Below, in pieces: positions 1,167-32,459 of a stretch of 34,010 nt of DNA. The position numbers and the translations under genes are program-made. Position 1 is the first letter of the stretch. Each line of letters starts with the position of its first letter. The stretch is from a virus. The stretch lies in IMG/VR virus record IMGVR_UViG_3300025669_000127, positions 1-34,010 of that record; one strand, 5' to 3'. The notes under the pieces are model-generated. The model was not told where the DNA came from, ran no database searches, and worked only from the letters and a program-made list of their open reading frames with translations.

Positions 1167-1602
1167 TAGTTTATTTTGTTTAATAACTATTATAGATAGG
1201 ATTTTTCATCTATAATAGATCATAATAATCATAATAGTTTATTATAACTGTATTATACATATATAATAAACTATTATAATGTATTATAGATAAATTACTA
1301 TTGAGCATTTAACCTGGTATAGCTTGCAAGCGTGATTATATATAGGTTTATATGCTTTATTATTATGATTATTATAATTATTATAGATAATATTAAGATA
1401 TAATGGTTTATTAAATGGTGTTAGAAATATATTACATTATGTATAGTATTATATACAATAAAAACAAATAATAAAAAATACCAGAATCATCTATAATAAT
1501 TATAATAATCTATCACAAAAGCACAAAAGCACAAATCAAATAAGTCTGATCCGTGCGTCCGGCGTTTTTTTTTTCTGGTATGGAAAAACATCACCATAAT
1601 GC
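1165..1602. promoter_or_regulatory. AT-rich non-coding region with nested inverted repeats
   Basis: No credible ORF is present. The region holds a perfect 11-bp inverted repeat (CTATTATAGAT at 1187-1197, mirrored at 1208-1218), a perfect 16-bp inverted repeat (ATAATAGTTTATTATA at 1231-1246, mirrored at 1262-1277), and further scattered TATTATAGA/TCTATAATA copies near 1281, 1378 and 1490. A CACAAAAG direct repeat occurs near 1514-1536. AATAGTTTATT occurs at 1165 and 1233 and inverted at 1265. Operators upstream of the promoter at 1138-1166 or an origin of replication are the main options. Confidence 0.6.
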
Positions 1603-1627
1603 AAAAAAACCGAACACACGTTCGGTT
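1603..1627 (-). terminator. intrinsic terminator of small RNA 1
   Basis: On the minus strand AACCGAAC (1627-1620), the tetraloop GTGT, and GTTCGGTT (1615-1608) are followed by a run of T to 1603. This is a classical Rho-independent terminator with an 8-bp stem. It ends the transcript predicted to start near 1764. Confidence 0.9.
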
Positions 1628-1764
1628 CTGATAATATACATTATGTAAACTAATTTTTGCTATCGTTGAATTAATTTGAAAAAGCGTAATTGTGCAAATG
1701 AGCAGATACCGGAGGCTTCAGTTAGTCTTCCTATTTTCTATCTGAAAAACCAAGATCGGTTTAT
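1603..1764 (-). ncRNA. candidate small RNA 1, about 160 nt
   Basis: A transcription unit without a usable ORF is bounded by a TTGACT-17-TATATT promoter (1799-1771) and an intrinsic terminator (1627-1603). The predicted start near 1764 is followed at once by a hairpin, AAACC/GGTTT (1762-1747). Further on, CAGATA and TATCTG could pair around an internal stem, and ATAAT/ATTAT forms a small hairpin before the terminator. No ATG or GTG in the RNA opens a frame of useful length. It lies just downstream of small RNA 2, which has the same plan. It matches no RNA family I recognise. It could act as an antisense, sponge or protein-binding RNA. Confidence 0.65.
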
Positions 1765-1770
1765 GGTGTT

Positions 1771-1799
1771 AATATAGCATAAAAATATAAAAAAGTCAA
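1771..1799 (-). promoter_or_regulatory. promoter of small RNA 1
   Basis: On the minus strand TTGACT (1799-1794), a 17-nt spacer and TATATT (1776-1771) differ from the sigma-A consensus at one base per box. The -35 context ATTTGACTTTT is the same as in the promoter of small RNA 2. Confidence 0.85.
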
Positions 1800-1842
1800 A
1801 TAAAAAATAGCTATATTTAAATGTATGTATCATTAGATCAAA

Positions 1843-1873
1843 TAAAAAACCCCCGACTATAAACATCAGGGGT
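1843..1873 (-). terminator. intrinsic terminator of small RNA 2
   Basis: On the minus strand ACCCCTGA, an 8-nt loop and TCGGGGGT form a GC-rich stem with one mismatch, followed by TTTTTT. It separates small RNA 2 from the promoter of small RNA 1 and would stop read-through from the tRNA array. Confidence 0.9.
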
Positions 1874-1974
1874 CTATGATCTTTGTTACCAGAGCGATCA
1901 TTACTCCGGTCGTTCTTCACGACAATGTATGGTTAGTCATAACCTCTCAATTTGTTTTCGCTGTCTGAGTCAGC
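1843..1974 (-). ncRNA. candidate structured small RNA 2, about 130 nt
   Basis: The unit starts near 1974, seven bases after a TATCTT -10 box, and ends at the terminator 1873-1843. Read on the minus strand it contains successive hairpins: GCTG/CAGC (1974-1960), GGTTA/TAACC with loop TGAC (1944-1931), GTCGT/ACGAC with loop GAAGA (1923-1909), ACCGGAG/CTCTGGT with one G-U pair (1910-1888, sharing two bases with the previous stem), and the terminator. Start codons in it open only frames of about 7 to 11 codons with poor SD spacing. A longer GTG frame reads through the terminator and is not credible. No known RNA family is recognised. Confidence 0.7.
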
Positions 1975-1980
1975 ATTTAA

Positions 1981-2009
1981 AAGATATCACATATTAAATG
2001 AAAAGTCAA
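1981..2009 (-). promoter_or_regulatory. promoter of small RNA 2
   Basis: On the minus strand TTGACT (2009-2004), a 17-nt spacer and TATCTT (1986-1981). It lies directly downstream of the tRNA-Gln gene, so small RNA 2 can be made independently of the tRNA array. Confidence 0.8.
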
Positions 2010-2382: not shown

Positions 2383-2395
2383 AGAAAAAAAAAAC

Positions 2396-2474
2396 TGGAG
2401 GGGAGTAAAATATGACCTGTACAGTAACGTCATCATACTCATAGATTTCTACAACTGTTACTCTCTATCTCCCC
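2396..2474 (-). ncRNA. tRNA-sized RNA-like fold ending in CCA, possibly a decayed tRNA
   Basis: A 79-nt minus-strand segment lies in the gap of the tRNA array. Its ends pair as GGGGAGA with ACTCCCC (six pairs plus a terminal A-A mismatch), followed by T and CCA exactly as in the neighbouring tRNAs. Inside there is no canonical TTCNA T-loop. Instead AGTAAC pairs with GTTACT and ATGAC with GTCAT. It may be a degenerated tRNA whose acceptor end survives, or a processed RNA that uses tRNA maturation enzymes. Confidence 0.35.
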
Positions 2475-2479
2475 ATATT

Positions 2480-2558: not shown

Positions 2559-2598
2559 TAAACTAGAAACTAAAAACTAAAAACTAAATAAAATTATG

Positions 2599-2666
2599 CC
2601 GAGATTTTTTACATGAGCCATAACTCAAACCATAAAGGAGGTCGCTATCACAATTGCGTATCTCGG
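2599..2666 (-). ncRNA. cloverleaf-like relic between tRNA-Pro and tRNA-Asp
   Basis: A 68-nt minus-strand segment is closed by CCGAGAT/ATCTCGG (7 perfect pairs). Inside are three short arms in tRNA order: CGC/GCG, GACC/GGTT with an 8-nt loop, and TGAG/CTCA with a 6-nt loop. There is no TTCNA T-loop and no CCA after the acceptor. The position in the array and four-arm layout suggest a decayed or diverged tRNA. The short arms could arise by chance. Confidence 0.3.
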
Positions 2667-2772: not shown

Positions 2773-3147
2773 CTAATTAACATACATAACCTGATTATGA
2801 TAATAACAATCAGGTGTATGAGGATGTTGTACACAATCAATTACAGTATTTCCATAATGTGGATATTTTGTACACATCTCTGTACGATCATTATATCCAG
2901 TACATAAGTTGGTAGCGTAATCAAAATAATCACATTTGTAAAATCCCATATCATTAACTCTAACATTCTTTATATGTGGATTTAATTTGAGTGCTAAAGA
3001 TCGACTAATCTTAGTAAGATGTTTATCACGCCATATTACATTAGGATCGTCAACAGCACGTTCTTTATTCCAACTCTTGTCCGATATAATAATTGCTTTA
3101 CAACAATCACCACAACCTTTACAATTATTTAATAGAATAATAATCAC
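2773..3147 (-). CDS. YkgJ-type cysteine-cluster protein (CxxCxxCC)
   Basis: This 124-aa protein carries CKGCGDCC near residues 9-16, then a Cys in KCDYFD, a Cys in LCTGYNDR and a Cys in MCTKYP. The order CxxCxxCC, then C, then C-x-x-Y, R, C and P matches the YkgJ/PF03692 family, described as zinc- or iron-chelating. No enzymatic role is established for most members. The only start leaving the cluster intact is GTG at 3147, which overlaps the end of the HD gene by 23 nt, so the two are probably translationally coupled. The tRNA array follows 11 nt downstream. Confidence 0.8.
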   Translation of the reverse strand: MIIILLNNCKGCGDCCKAIIISDKSWNKERAVDDPNVIWRDKHLTKISRSLALKLNPHIKNVRVNDMGFYKCDYFDYATNLCTGYNDRTEMCTKYPHYGNTVIDCVQHPHTPDCYYHNQVMYVN

Positions 3148-3775
3148 ATTCCGATAACATAAAACTCAAAAATAAACCATTTAAAGATCCAGCACCAAAA
3201 GCTTGCAACGAATCAAATACCGTCAAGAAACGCCAATAGTACATATGTCCTTCAACTGCCTCAGCAACTAAACCTTTAAAATCATAATCACTTTCAACAG
3301 AGCGTATCAGATTTGCACCATCTTCTCCATGTGTCTTGCTAGTCCATACGCTATCACCAGTATATTTACATATATCATGTAATATACAAGCAACACGAAG
3401 GGCTTCACTAAGATGATCGTAGAATACACCTAATGCAGATTCATAACGATTTAAAACTTTAGTAGCCATAGCAAGTACTTGTTCGGTATGCACTATATTA
3501 CCGCCTACACAATTGCATAAATCTTTAGGACCGCCGTGATATTTACCTGTAGAGCTAGTAGGCATGTAAAAAAATTCATCAGGAGCCTTAGCAAAACAAT
3601 TCAAGCACCAATCAACAGCAAGATCTGAAATAACTGCTGATGCAATAATAGAATTAATTTTAGCACGGCCTTCTGCAATCGCCCCAGAAAAATCAGCTTT
3701 GCTTAAATAATCCTTCTTCATGGTAGATGAGCTAGGAAAATATGTTTCAGGAAATTTATCACCGAAATTAATCAT
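3125..3775 (-). CDS. HD-domain phosphohydrolase
   Basis: This 216-aa protein shows the HD-superfamily metal-binding pattern: H96 (NIVHTEQ), H133-D134 (ILHDICKY), H149 (THGEDG), H177 (VEGHMYY) and a distal Asp near 211 (SECDYY). HD proteins hydrolyse phosphate esters, often nucleotides or (p)ppGpp-type compounds; the substrate cannot be told from sequence. The start ATG at 3775 follows AAGGAG with 5-nt spacing. The gene is preceded by a structured leader of about 340 nt and overlaps the CxxCxxCC gene. Nucleotide-pool adjustment or countering a nucleotide-signal defence would both fit, as inference. Confidence 0.8.
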   Translation of the reverse strand: MINFGDKFPETYFPSSSTMKKDYLSKADFSGAIAEGRAKINSIIASAVISDLAVDWCLNCFAKAPDEFFYMPTSSTGKYHGGPKDLCNCVGGNIVHTEQVLAMATKVLNRYESALGVFYDHLSEALRVACILHDICKYTGDSVWTSKTHGEDGANLIRSVESDYDFKGLVAEAVEGHMYYWRFLTVFDSLQAFGAGSLNGLFLSFMLSECDYYSIK

Positions 3776-4115
3776 AAAAACTCCTTAACTTAAAAAAAAA
3801 ACTAAATAATATATAGTAGCGGTTTTTCATCAAGTTAACAAAACTTTGGTATACCGCCAACCATAATACAATCAACAACCGTTCAGCATATCGGTTGATG
3901 TTTTCAATATGCTGTGTGGTCAGATGATGCCCTTATACAGCATCACCGAGATCTCCTCCTACACATGGTAAGTGAGATAGAAAACGGTTTTTTCATCTCA
4001 TGACTTTAGGCCAGCTATCTGCTAAAGCTCCCGTTGCCAGTCAGGTATTTAAGGAGATCATCGCCTTAGTCCCAGATCTCCACCGTAAACCTATATATCA
4101 TCAACCTAAGCAGTA
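3776..4115 (-). promoter_or_regulatory. long structured leader RNA of the HD gene
   Basis: From a predicted start near 4115 to the HD ATG no long ORF exists. Hairpins seen on the minus strand include GGAGATC/GATCTCC (4081-4075 with 4059-4053), CTTTAG/CTAAAG (4027-4022 with 4009-4004), a TGAGAT/ATCTCA stem near 4000-3973, TGATGC/GCATCA near 3945-3922, and CAGCATAT/ATATGCTG (3914-3907 with 3891-3884). The last is interleaved with CAACCG/CGGTTG (3897-3892 with 3881-3876). The GATCTCC segment can also pair with a second GGAGATC at 3956-3950 that is part of a strong SD, so two exclusive folds exist. No known riboswitch class is recognised. Confidence 0.55.
3920..3946 (-). CDS. possible 8-codon leader peptide
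   Basis: Within the HD-gene leader, AGGAGG (3960-3955) is followed 8 nt later by GTG-ATG and six more codons (reading MMLYKGII) before TGA at 3922-3920. The SD is the best in the leader and would be hidden if GGAGATC (3956-3950) paired with GATCTCC (4059-4053). A leader peptide that senses translation is plausible, but the ORF is too short to prove by eye. Confidence 0.3.
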   Translation of the reverse strand: MMLYKGII

Positions 4116-4121
4116 GACACT

Positions 4122-4150
4122 AATAAACCACATTTTAACAAAAAAGTCAA
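4122..4150 (-). promoter_or_regulatory. promoter of the HD gene leader
   Basis: On the minus strand TTGACT (4150-4145), 17 nt, then TTTATT (4127-4122). The -35 box and the following T-run match the two small RNA promoters. The -10 is weak, so strength or exact spacing is uncertain. Confidence 0.55.
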
Positions 4151-4179
4151 GTATTAAATAAAAGAAATTAATAAAAGCC

Positions 4180-4208
4180 TTGACAAATCCTGAAACATGT
4201 GATATTCT
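4180..4208 (+). promoter_or_regulatory. late operon promoter
   Basis: TTGACA (4180-4185), a 17-nt spacer and TATTCT (4203-4208). The predicted start is near 4215, which rules out an ATG at 4199 as the first codon of the small terminase gene and supports the ATG at 4232. Confidence 0.8.
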
Positions 4209-29468: not shown

Positions 29469-31766
29469 TCACTTATCAATCATCTCTCCCCACTTAAAGC
29501 CATAACTAATATCAACTTTAAACGGTATCTTTGGATGCAACCAATCTATTGGAACTTGTTCCATAGTTTCTTTAACTAATGCTCTGATTTTATTAACTTT
29601 TTCTTTATTATTTGGTGCCTCAACTAAAATAGCGTCATGTATAAGATTAACAGAAAATGCATCTAATTTCAATAGAGGGTTCTCTAATTCTATAGCTGAT
29701 ACTAAGTTTAAATCTGAGCCTGTACTTTGAATTTTAAAATTTCTGCTTTCATTCTTTAAGCCTTGATCATTTGCTATAACTCCATATCTTCTGTAACGAC
29801 CAAAAGGAGTAACAAAAGGAGTACCAGTAAGTAACTGAGTCTCGCAATCATCTAAGTATTGTTTAGCTTTTGGTGCACGTTCAAACCATTTATCTATCAT
29901 CATTTGTGCTTCTCGTAAAGATATATTTAATTGTTGCGCAATGCTAAAAGCAGTAATACCATAAATAATTCCGAAGTTTACAGGTTTAACATTAGTACGA
30001 TCTTCCTTTGTAAAATTAGTACCGTAAATTTCACTGGCCATAGCACTATGAATATCCTTGCCTTGTCTAAAAGTTTCAAGTAGAAAATCGTCATCACTAA
30101 AGTGGGCAAGCAGCCTTAATTCTAACTGACTATAATCAGCTTCAATTAATAACCGTCCTTCAGGAGCACCAAATATAGATTTAACTATTGGATTTCTTGG
30201 AATAGTCTGCACATTAGGTTTGCTACTAGATAATCTACCTGTAACAGTAGTCTGCAAACTGAACGAACTCCTTAAGCGATTATCAGGATCTACTCGTTTC
30301 TCAATTCCTTTAACATACGTACTCATTAATTTAGCAAGTTCTTTATATTTAAGTAAGTAAGTAAATCCATAGTGCCTATCTTCAATATCAGCAATAATAT
30401 CTTTATCTGTGCATCTCTTGTTTTTCTTGTGTATCTTTGGTATAATTTTTAGTTGATCATAAATTATAAAAGCTAACTGTTGAGAACTATTAGGATTAAG
30501 TTCAACTGGTGCTGACTTTGCATCTGTTTGTACTAAGTAACCTTCCCTATTCCAAATAGCACCAAAAGAATCAATGACTTGTCCTTTCAAAATATCAAGT
30601 TCAATCTGTAGTTTTTTATGATATTGAGCTAAGTATTCTTGCCTAACATAAAAACCTTTTTGCGACATTCTGCGTAAGAAGTTAATACCAGGTATTAACA
30701 CTTTATAATACAATTTCTTAAGATTAGGGTCAGCTTCTATCTGTGGAAGAAACAAATCACTTAACTGATAAGTATGATCAGCATCCATGGCAACTAATAA
30801 ATTACGCTGATCTTCAGATAGTTCAGCCATTTTTGATTTATCCACATCAAATCCATAATCTTTTGCTCCCAGAAAAAGTCTTGATAAAGAATCTAAATCA
30901 TGACCACGTTCATTTTCGTTGAGGACATAGTGCTGTAATAAGGTATCATGTTGTCCTTCTATTTCTATACCATGTTCAGAAAGAACTGCGGTATCAAATT
31001 GCATCCTTTGGTAAATGGTTTTACAATTTGATAGAATTTCTTTAATGTATGGCAACATATCAGATTGGAACACTACGACTTTGTTCTTAGCATATTCTAA
31101 TCCCACAACTAAAATTTGAGCTTTCTTGGGGTCTAAACTGGTAGTTTCAATATCACAGCTAATAGTACCATGAAGTAAAGGCAGTAAGGAATCAATATTT
31201 TCTTTAGTTGCAACTTGATAGGTGGTTATGCCAGGATCCTTTTTATGTGTAGGATTATCTAATAATTGTTTTGCATAGATAAAACCATTTAAAAATGTTT
31301 TGTAATTACCTATAGCATTTAATACTGCTGTCGGATGATAGATGGGAATAATGAGACTATCACCAAAAGGTATAGGAGTTGAATGGGCGGAGCCTATTTT
31401 TAATTTATAGTTATTTGTTAAAGTATGTAAAGCAATGTTACCAAATGCTAGAATGATCTTAGGTTTGACTATAGCAAGTTCAGCTAAAACTCTTGATCTG
31501 CAATGTGCAATATGTGCACGTTGGATATTTGTATCTTCAGGTATCATACATAATAATGAATTAGTTATATATGGTGTATCAGTGAAGCCCGCTTTTGCTA
31601 AAGTTTCTTTAAGTAATTGCCCTGATGGACCTACAAATGGTGTCTTAGCGACCAGCTCCTGATTATTAGTACTTCCACCTACTATAGCGAGGTTGCTACT
31701 AAAAGGTTCAGTAGGTGGTATTTGTGGGTATATGTTTAGTTCACATTTTTTGCATTGGGCTAACAA
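29469..31766 (-). CDS. uracil-DNA glycosylase-like domain fused to family A DNA polymerase
   Basis: The product has 765 aa. Residues 1-170 form a family 4-like uracil-DNA glycosylase: C5 and C8, C73 and C89 spaced like its [4Fe-4S] ligands, KTPFVGPSG (41-49) and HPTA (144-147). The catalytic-region GEAPG is replaced by VGGST. About 190-370 is a 3'-5' exonuclease (SCDIETTSLD). The polymerase part has motif A EADYSQLELR (D544), motif B with K594 and FGIIYG, and motif C IHDAILVE (H710, D711, E716). A TTG at 31766 within the overlap with the Mom-like gene is the likely start, with GGGG 8 nt upstream. It is probably the phage replicase. Confidence 0.85.
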   Translation of the reverse strand: MLAQCKKCELNIYPQIPPTEPFSSNLAIVGGSTNNQELVAKTPFVGPSGQLLKETLAKAGFTDTPYITNSLLCMIPEDTNIQRAHIAHCRSRVLAELAIVKPKIILAFGNIALHTLTNNYKLKIGSAHSTPIPFGDSLIIPIYHPTAVLNAIGNYKTFLNGFIYAKQLLDNPTHKKDPGITTYQVATKENIDSLLPLLHGTISCDIETTSLDPKKAQILVVGLEYAKNKVVVFQSDMLPYIKEILSNCKTIYQRMQFDTAVLSEHGIEIEGQHDTLLQHYVLNENERGHDLDSLSRLFLGAKDYGFDVDKSKMAELSEDQRNLLVAMDADHTYQLSDLFLPQIEADPNLKKLYYKVLIPGINFLRRMSQKGFYVRQEYLAQYHKKLQIELDILKGQVIDSFGAIWNREGYLVQTDAKSAPVELNPNSSQQLAFIIYDQLKIIPKIHKKNKRCTDKDIIADIEDRHYGFTYLLKYKELAKLMSTYVKGIEKRVDPDNRLRSSFSLQTTVTGRLSSSKPNVQTIPRNPIVKSIFGAPEGRLLIEADYSQLELRLLAHFSDDDFLLETFRQGKDIHSAMASEIYGTNFTKEDRTNVKPVNFGIIYGITAFSIAQQLNISLREAQMMIDKWFERAPKAKQYLDDCETQLLTGTPFVTPFGRYRRYGVIANDQGLKNESRNFKIQSTGSDLNLVSAIELENPLLKLDAFSVNLIHDAILVEAPNNKEKVNKIRALVKETMEQVPIDWLHPKIPFKVDISYGFKWGEMIDK

Positions 31767-32407
31767 GAAACCAACCCCTCTTCTGAAACTTCATAACTTG
31801 CATCATATTTTGTATTATCCCCTTTAGGGTAATTTAATCGCTTTAATTTATAATGCTTATGCATATTTTTAACTTCTGTTTTATTCCCTAAAAAATAAAA
31901 ATATCTATATGTAGGTTGTAGTAAAATTTTTTCTACTATCTTACCTTTCTTATCTATACCACGTCTTATATCAAAAGATGATCCATCTTCAAAAATATAC
32001 CTATGTTTAGGAGAACTAGTACCTGAATATATCCAATTAGTTGCTTGATAAATATAACCATGATGACCCTGATTAGGATCTGCATAACTTACTATGCAAC
32101 ATGGCTTAGGTAATAACTTTAAAGATGATGAAACAAAATAACTTAAAGTATTTTTTGGCAATTTATCATTTACAACTAATCTATTTAATTCTAATGTAGT
32201 TACTTCGTAGTTTATAAATACACATTTACCTTTATTAAAATTATAATTAGGGGGATATCCAAAAGTACAAATACCTTCTAACCTCCTGGTATTATTACTA
32301 AAAAGACCAAAAGCATATGATATAGAAGGTCTCCTATGGGCATAATGTTTCTTAAGTATCCAAGGATATGCTCTCTTAGATGGTATTGATTTTACATGGT
32401 ACTCCAT
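31760..32407 (-). CDS. Mom-like DNA adenine modification protein
   Basis: The product has 215 aa from MEYHVKSIPSKRAYPW. The GAGGA ribosome binding site lies 5 nt upstream; a longer frame to 32434 would read through the terminator at 32425-32459. LKKHYAHRRPSISYAFGLF, GICTFGYPPN, LNRLVVNDKLPKNTLSYF, CIVSYADPNQGHHGYIYQATNWIYSG are typical of the Mu Mom family of GNAT-like proteins. Mom turns adenine into N6-methylcarbamoyl-adenine to protect phage DNA from restriction. It overlaps the polymerase start by 7 nt. The C-terminal 40 residues are basic and less conserved. Confidence 0.8.
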   Translation of the reverse strand: MEYHVKSIPSKRAYPWILKKHYAHRRPSISYAFGLFSNNTRRLEGICTFGYPPNYNFNKGKCVFINYEVTTLELNRLVVNDKLPKNTLSYFVSSSLKLLPKPCCIVSYADPNQGHHGYIYQATNWIYSGTSSPKHRYIFEDGSSFDIRRGIDKKGKIVEKILLQPTYRYFYFLGNKTEVKNMHKHYKLKRLNYPKGDNTKYDASYEVSEEGLVSC

Positions 32408-32424
32408 AAATTCCTCTTTTCTCT

Positions 32425-32459
32425 TAAAAAACAATCAGGGCAGTCACCCACCCTGACTA
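32425..32459 (-). terminator. intrinsic terminator ahead of the Mom-like gene
   Basis: On the minus strand AGTCAGGG, a loop of about 10 nt, and CCCTGATT (8 pairs including one G-T), then GTTTTTT. It lies 18 nt before the Mom-like ATG and after the ssDNA-binding gene. Transcripts from the recombination genes would stop here unless antitermination or another promoter acts, so it may gate Mom and polymerase expression. Confidence 0.85.

Follow-up and report, generated by a model that had tools for sequence, protein, structure and literature searches.

The gap between two divergent genes of this virus raises the question of whether it encodes an RNA switch for the downstream gene, a structured RNA of another kind, or no RNA at all. 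The window analyzed here is the whole virus record, with a length of 34,010 bases, and the phage is A+T-rich. The gap (3776-4180) separates a leftward gene for an HD-domain protein (3125-3775) from a rightward gene, starting at about 4234, that matches a terminase small subunit family (phrog_6299). The first-pass annotation had described the approximately 340 nt in front of the HD gene as an untranslated leader that could act as a nucleotide-sensing riboswitch or attenuator if the HD enzyme acts on a nucleotide. The G+C content of the leader is 0.42-0.44, as compared to about 0.3 on both sides, a level with a nearby parallel in the tRNA cluster. A promoter, TTGACT-17 nt-TTTATT (minus strand, 4150-4145 and 4127-4122), was predicted solely from its match to the consensus. 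Its -10 element, TTTATT, is weak, and the promoter at 4150-4122 was absent from the promoter-scanner list; an alternative extended -10 element, TGTTAAAAT, is located at 4140-4132 on the same strand. From these elements we infer a transcript start at approximately 4125-4114 on the minus strand, and the distance from this predicted start to the HD start codon is about 340 nt. No minus-strand ORF of at least 25 codons (25 aa) was found in the leader core; a mini-ORF of 7-8 codons (3946-3920) is present. On the plus strand, two ORFs of 29 and 38 aa cross the leader (3914-4003 and 4000-4116) and overlap at ATGA; they were rejected as genes, with neither a visible ribosome site nor a PHROG match.

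Analysis of complementary stems confirmed that the leader contains many pairing segments. The numbers of perfect stems of at least 6, 7 and 8 bp were 31, 11 and 5, as compared to means of 11.1, 2.8 and 0.67 in dinucleotide shuffles (11 ± 3 for stems of at least 6 bp), and none of 500 shuffles matched these counts. After removal of the A/T-only stems, 19, 8 and 4 stems with at least two G/C remained, as compared to 5.9, 1.8 and 0.5, values reached by at most 0.3% of 1,000 shuffles. Direct repeats were not enriched in the leader, which shows that the excess of stems is not a matter of general repetitiveness. When 199 windows of 340 nt were ranked by stem excess over the whole contig, the window at 3741 came second; the top window, at 1531, contains two terminators.

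The predicted folding energy over the whole leader was only moderately low, with MFE z-scores of -2.6 for the minus strand and -2.9 for the plus strand. The ensemble energy was -101.8, as compared to -86.7 +/- 4.8 for the shuffles, none of which was as low (0 of 120). The strongest local fold signal was observed at 3800-3949 (z -4.2 for the minus strand and -2.1 for the plus strand), and positions 3880-3999 displayed z-scores of -3.2 and -0.4, respectively; the lowest z-score among 240 windows of contig background was -3.5. At 3860-4000 the local folding was specific to the minus strand, and stem extensions through G-U pairs are possible on this strand only. Based on the excess of stems over shuffles, a folded minus-strand RNA at approximately 4114-3805 is likely, and we hold with good confidence that a real folded RNA is present here. 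The stem excess, the ensemble energy and the local rise in G+C content together place a structured RNA module, either a leader or an independent RNA, at 3805-4114 on the minus strand.

Three segments had been proposed to give this RNA its switch-like character, and their coordinates on the minus strand proved to be exact, with two copies of GGAGATC (4081-4075 and 3956-3950) and GATCTCC between them (4059-4053). The first GGAGATC is segment A (4075-4081). Segment B, GATCTCCTTAA (4049-4059), is complementary to A and to segment C, AGGAGATC (3950-3957), which overlaps the ribosome site AGGAGG (3960-3955) of the mini-ORF. An extra partner of B was absent from the first-pass annotation: CTCCTTAA (4056-4049) is perfectly complementary to TTAAGGAG (3788-3781), the Shine-Dalgarno sequence of the HD gene on the minus strand.

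In the predicted fold, B:C closes a domain of 113 nt (3950-4062, minus strand) with a z-score of -2.56, and the probability of B:C in a transcript of 399 nt was 0.98. Inside the domain are a short hairpin near 4042-4033 and two others, at 4027-4004 and 4000-3973. When a fixed window was used for the half with the three segments (3950-4099), the z-score was -0.5. The sub-domain at 3860-3950 (z -2.9) consists of two hairpins, predicted to be formed on the minus strand by GGTGATGC/GCATCATC (3923-3948) and CAGCATATTG/CGATATGCTG (3882-3916). The loop of the latter hairpin, CATCAACC (3900-3893), shows perfect complementarity over 8 nt to 4106-4099, the first half of a 5' strand that reads GGTTGATG and then ATATATAG (4091-4106, minus strand). 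The second half of this strand is complementary to 3816-3809 (CTATATAT), the 3' strand of a putative closing helix, P1, directly before a run of ten T residues (T10; 3792-3801, minus strand) that lies between the RNA module and the ribosome site of the HD gene. The 5' strand GGUUGAUG-AUAUAUAG could in this way pair with both the loop CAUCAACC and the sequence CUAUAUAU, and the two pairings would form a pseudoknotted closing element, a type of structure that the folding programs used cannot score. Extension of the transcript into the HD codons lowered the predicted occupancy of the A/U-rich P1 from 0.8 to 0.

The explanation that we favor, with a probability of roughly 0.45, is that the gap encodes a structured RNA, about 300 nt long and specific to this lineage, that heads a tRNA-rich leftward operon and has B:C as a part of its architecture. 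A promoter near 4150-4122 would drive its leftward transcription, and a single architecture would dominate its folding. A:B would be a local helix, the first to form as the RNA is transcribed, and would be displaced once C emerges, and B:C would then be the structural closing helix of a compact 113-nt junction. P1 (4098-4091 and 3816-3809) would enclose this junction and the two strong hairpins, and the 5' end (4106-4099) may be tied to the hairpin loop (3900-3893) as a pseudoknot. Transcription would then read through the RNA into the remainder of the operon, with the HD gene, a gene for a CxxCxxCC protein and six tRNA genes. No terminator intervenes between the RNA and the HD gene, and an RNA that acts independently would therefore need processing. 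An RNA body of this kind, whether a stable 5' leader or an independent and perhaps processed phage RNA, is more likely than a ligand switch for the HD gene; the promoter, the pseudoknot and the function of the RNA are what we infer.

A rather doubtful extension of this explanation is that the RNA represents a new class of pseudoknotted phage RNAs of about 300 nt, outside the described families, which would head an operon rich in tRNAs and other RNAs and act either on its own or as an antitermination or ribosome-directed leader. The ROOL and GOLLD RNAs are located near phage tRNA islands, and many GOLLD members are reported to be 800 nt or more (PMC12286853). Like these, the leader would be an untranslated and elaborately folded phage RNA with a predicted pseudoknot and without an assigned function, and it is located on the same strand as the tRNA cluster, about 1 kb away. 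It differs from them in its length of about 300 nt and in having a protein gene directly after it, and the Rfam models of ROOL and GOLLD did not match the leader even at an E-value of 10.

The second explanation that we considered, which we find unlikely, is a translational switch in cis, in which B serves as an anti-Shine-Dalgarno segment that binds A, C or the ribosome site of the HD gene; the choice of partner would be decided by translation of the mini-ORF, by a ligand or by a protein. The mutually exclusive helices, the anti-Shine-Dalgarno-like segment, the mini-ORF with a strong ribosome site and the position in a predicted 5' leader are all features of translational riboswitches and leader-peptide attenuators. 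In 3.4% of the dinucleotide shuffles of the leader, some 7-mer had perfect partners on either flank; with at least three G/C required, the figure was 0.6%. The segments were picked after the fact, and this rarity is therefore taken as suggestive. Complementarity of CTCCTTAA to the HD ribosome site is expected by chance in 1-3% of cases, and this potential fourth pairing partly favors the switch. The unit formed by AGGAGG and the downstream mini-ORF (GTG-ATG-CTG-TAT-AAG-GGC-ATC-ATC-TGA, 3920-3946, minus strand) occurred in only 2.5% of the shuffles.

Modeling of the two states supported one part of the switch hypothesis, namely that A:B and B:C are mutually exclusive and of similar energy. A:B was about 2-3 kcal/mol above B:C in the fold model, and the favored helix alternated with the length of the transcript. 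The occupancy of A:B was approximately 1.0 for transcripts ending at 4040-3995, whereas B:C reached 0.93 once C had emerged at 3950 and 0.98 in the transcript with HD codons, with near balance at several lengths. The other part, an actual switch, was not supported. The ensemble diversity was no higher than in the shuffles (72 as compared to 87 +/- 24), and positions for which two partners compete were no more numerous (37 as compared to 41 +/- 24), which suggests architecture rather than switching. A modeled ribosome on the mini-ORF moved B to A (A:B 0.96) but left the HD ribosome site unaffected. The exposure of this site, in a model that leaves out pseudoknots and ligand, was 0.18-0.20 irrespective of whether A:B was forced, B:C was forced or a ribosome was placed on the mini-ORF. 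The predicted partners of the site are HD codons, and its pairing with B had an occupancy of 0 in every state. The exclusive pairings are present, but a regulatory consequence was not seen even in the fold model.

Neither of the two specific forms of regulation that had been suggested for the leader was supported. A terminator scan of 3776-4115 identified no intrinsic terminator on the minus strand, and attenuation would thus lack its terminator. The T10 run (3801-3792), which on the minus strand has a counterpart only in an element at 2394-2478, has no adjacent G+C-rich hairpin. The Rfam covariance search identified only tRNAs in the whole window at the gathering cut-off and nothing for the leader, where the best matches below the threshold, at an E-value of 10, were miRNA and snoRNA noise. 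A nucleotide riboswitch has no Rfam match in its favor, and the protein encoded downstream makes it less compelling. This protein (3125-3775, minus strand; 216 aa, PF01966) is a relative of SPO1 gp32.6 (phrog_5889) and shares the motifs PxSSxGKYH, HD, HM and D with the gp32.6-like proteins. Its predicted structure (pLDDT 86) has its nearest solved fold in YhaM (E 0.006, TM 0.53), which ranks ahead of exopolyphosphatases and SAMHD1 among the solved structures. Since YhaM is an RNA exonuclease, the argument for a nucleotide ligand is weakened, and this weak match points to nucleic acid as much as to nucleotides. A relationship of the HD protein to the dATPase of Z-phages (DatZ) was also considered, and was not supported by sequence in the solved structures.

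The leader is also missing from nearly all examined relatives of the HD gene, which are distant and align in short stretches at no more than about 45% identity. No upstream gap of at least 150 nt was found for 121 of 122 such relatives, for which the median distance was -4 nt; a single relative has a gap of this size. In SPO1, the gp32.6 gene overlaps its upstream neighbor and has no leader, and in HGTV-1 the gap upstream of the HD relative is about 20 nt. As far as distant relatives go, the refuting condition named in the first-pass annotation, homologous HD genes without the leader pairing, thus speaks against the switch. Thus, within a set that contains no close relatives, the RNA is not tied to the HD gene family. 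The HD protein as a single query gave no match in viral contigs. Searches with the terminase and the polymerase recovered contigs of the same species at 100% identity and terminase relatives at about 35-55%, and no HD relative was found in the contigs of the latter.

Searches for the leader itself gave a similar result. The best blastn matches in phages and plasmids had E-values of 0.1 and 0.03 and covered short A/T-rich pieces; nhmmer and blastn over about 150 loci gave no match, and comparison of the DNA to 48 related viral records gave matches of at most 20 nt. In 2.9 million viral contigs, an exact pattern of the main hairpin had no match, and one of A-B-C retrieved nothing but L003/L160, a contig of the same species. 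Two contigs of the same species (L002 and L003) contain parts of the leader at 100% identity. Since only identical copies from the same species were found, covariation cannot support any helix, and the phages, plasmids, viral records and viral patterns searched contained no divergent relative that would indicate an aptamer conserved in several lineages. The leader differs from translational riboswitches and attenuators in having no conserved aptamer, Rfam match, conservation or predicted change at the ribosome site. Phage-borne examples exist in the glutamine riboswitch of phage Melnitz (PMC9004378) and the manA and wcaG motifs of cyanophages (PMC2864571). In common with these, the leader is a folded RNA of phage origin with a suggested role in phage gene regulation, but those families rest on comparative evidence, and it matches none of them. 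A ligand switch is possible, at low odds, but unsupported.

It is improbable, but conceivable by analogy, that the RNA is a protein-binding or antitermination leader, which would bind a protein of the phage or host, or the polymerase, and aid read-through of the untranslated tRNA part of the operon. Analogues of this type are the put RNA of HK022 and the EAR element. The RNA lies where a leftward transcript toward six tRNAs is predicted to start, and its hairpins are near the promoter, both in agreement with such a role, whereas the Rfam matches contained only noise, and a single transcript spanning the region is predicted only.

An explanation at the level of DNA is also improbable. The inverted repeats would in this case be protein-binding sites, as operators or as a packaging (cos/pac) or replication site between divergent promoters. 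The excess of perfect stems is strand-symmetric, the gap is directly upstream of the terminase small subunit gene (phrog_6299), and its sequence includes a 24-nt imperfect direct repeat and three 13-mers that are related to one another. However, the lack of enrichment of direct repeats, the minus-strand-specific folding at 3860-4000 and the G-U extensions of the stems on that strand only argue against a DNA element. An antisense RNA against the terminase mRNA was rejected, as the two transcripts are predicted to start at separate points, with no overlap between them. That a gap of higher G+C content simply happens to contain complementary words is very improbable: the whole leader has no extreme z-score (-2.6), and its pairings were the reason for selecting the region, but its stem counts and second rank among 199 windows argue against chance.

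Other features of the contig were recorded in the course of the analysis. Directly after the tRNA cluster, an ORF-free stretch (1840-2009, minus strand; fold z -3.0) is a candidate for a small RNA of about 130 nt; it has hairpins, a strong terminator (1875-1847) and, at 2009-1981, a promoter-like TTGACT-17-TATCTT. A second candidate of about 160 nt (1600-1799, minus strand; ORF-free, fold z -0.7) has a promoter-like TTGACT-17-TATATT (1799-1771) and a terminator (1629-1606). Between the tRNA-Pro and tRNA-Leu genes, the element at 2394-2478 (minus strand) contains GGGGAG...CTCCCC-TCCA followed by its T10 run and resembles a degenerate tRNA or a tRNA-like element, although called by neither ARAGORN nor Rfam. 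Between the tRNA-Asp and tRNA-Pro genes, an 83-nt piece (2583-2665, minus strand; fold z -1.3) closed by CGAGAT/ATCTCG is possibly another RNA element. These elements further down the minus strand suggest that the phage invests in non-coding RNA there, in parallel with the location of GOLLD and ROOL RNAs by phage tRNA islands (PMC12286853). Elsewhere, the left contig end carries a perfect 26-bp tandem repeat in 4.3 copies (TTACTATTGCTCCAGATGCTATCCTG, 61-171), and positions 1200-1500, with 15-20% G+C, are rich in inverted A/T repeats, lack a clear gene and are possibly an origin or control region. A protein of 765 aa (29469-31766, minus strand) combines an N-terminal domain of the uracil-DNA glycosylase superfamily (PF03167) with an exonuclease and a family A DNA polymerase, and its gene adjoins a Mom-family DNA modification gene (31760-32434).

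A nucleotide riboswitch for an HD enzyme would, if true, be notable, but the present evidence falls short of it. The functions of folded phage RNAs are mostly unknown, and many of these RNAs are located beside tRNA islands. The leader adds to them a further candidate, a well-delimited orphan with defined ends and testable helices.
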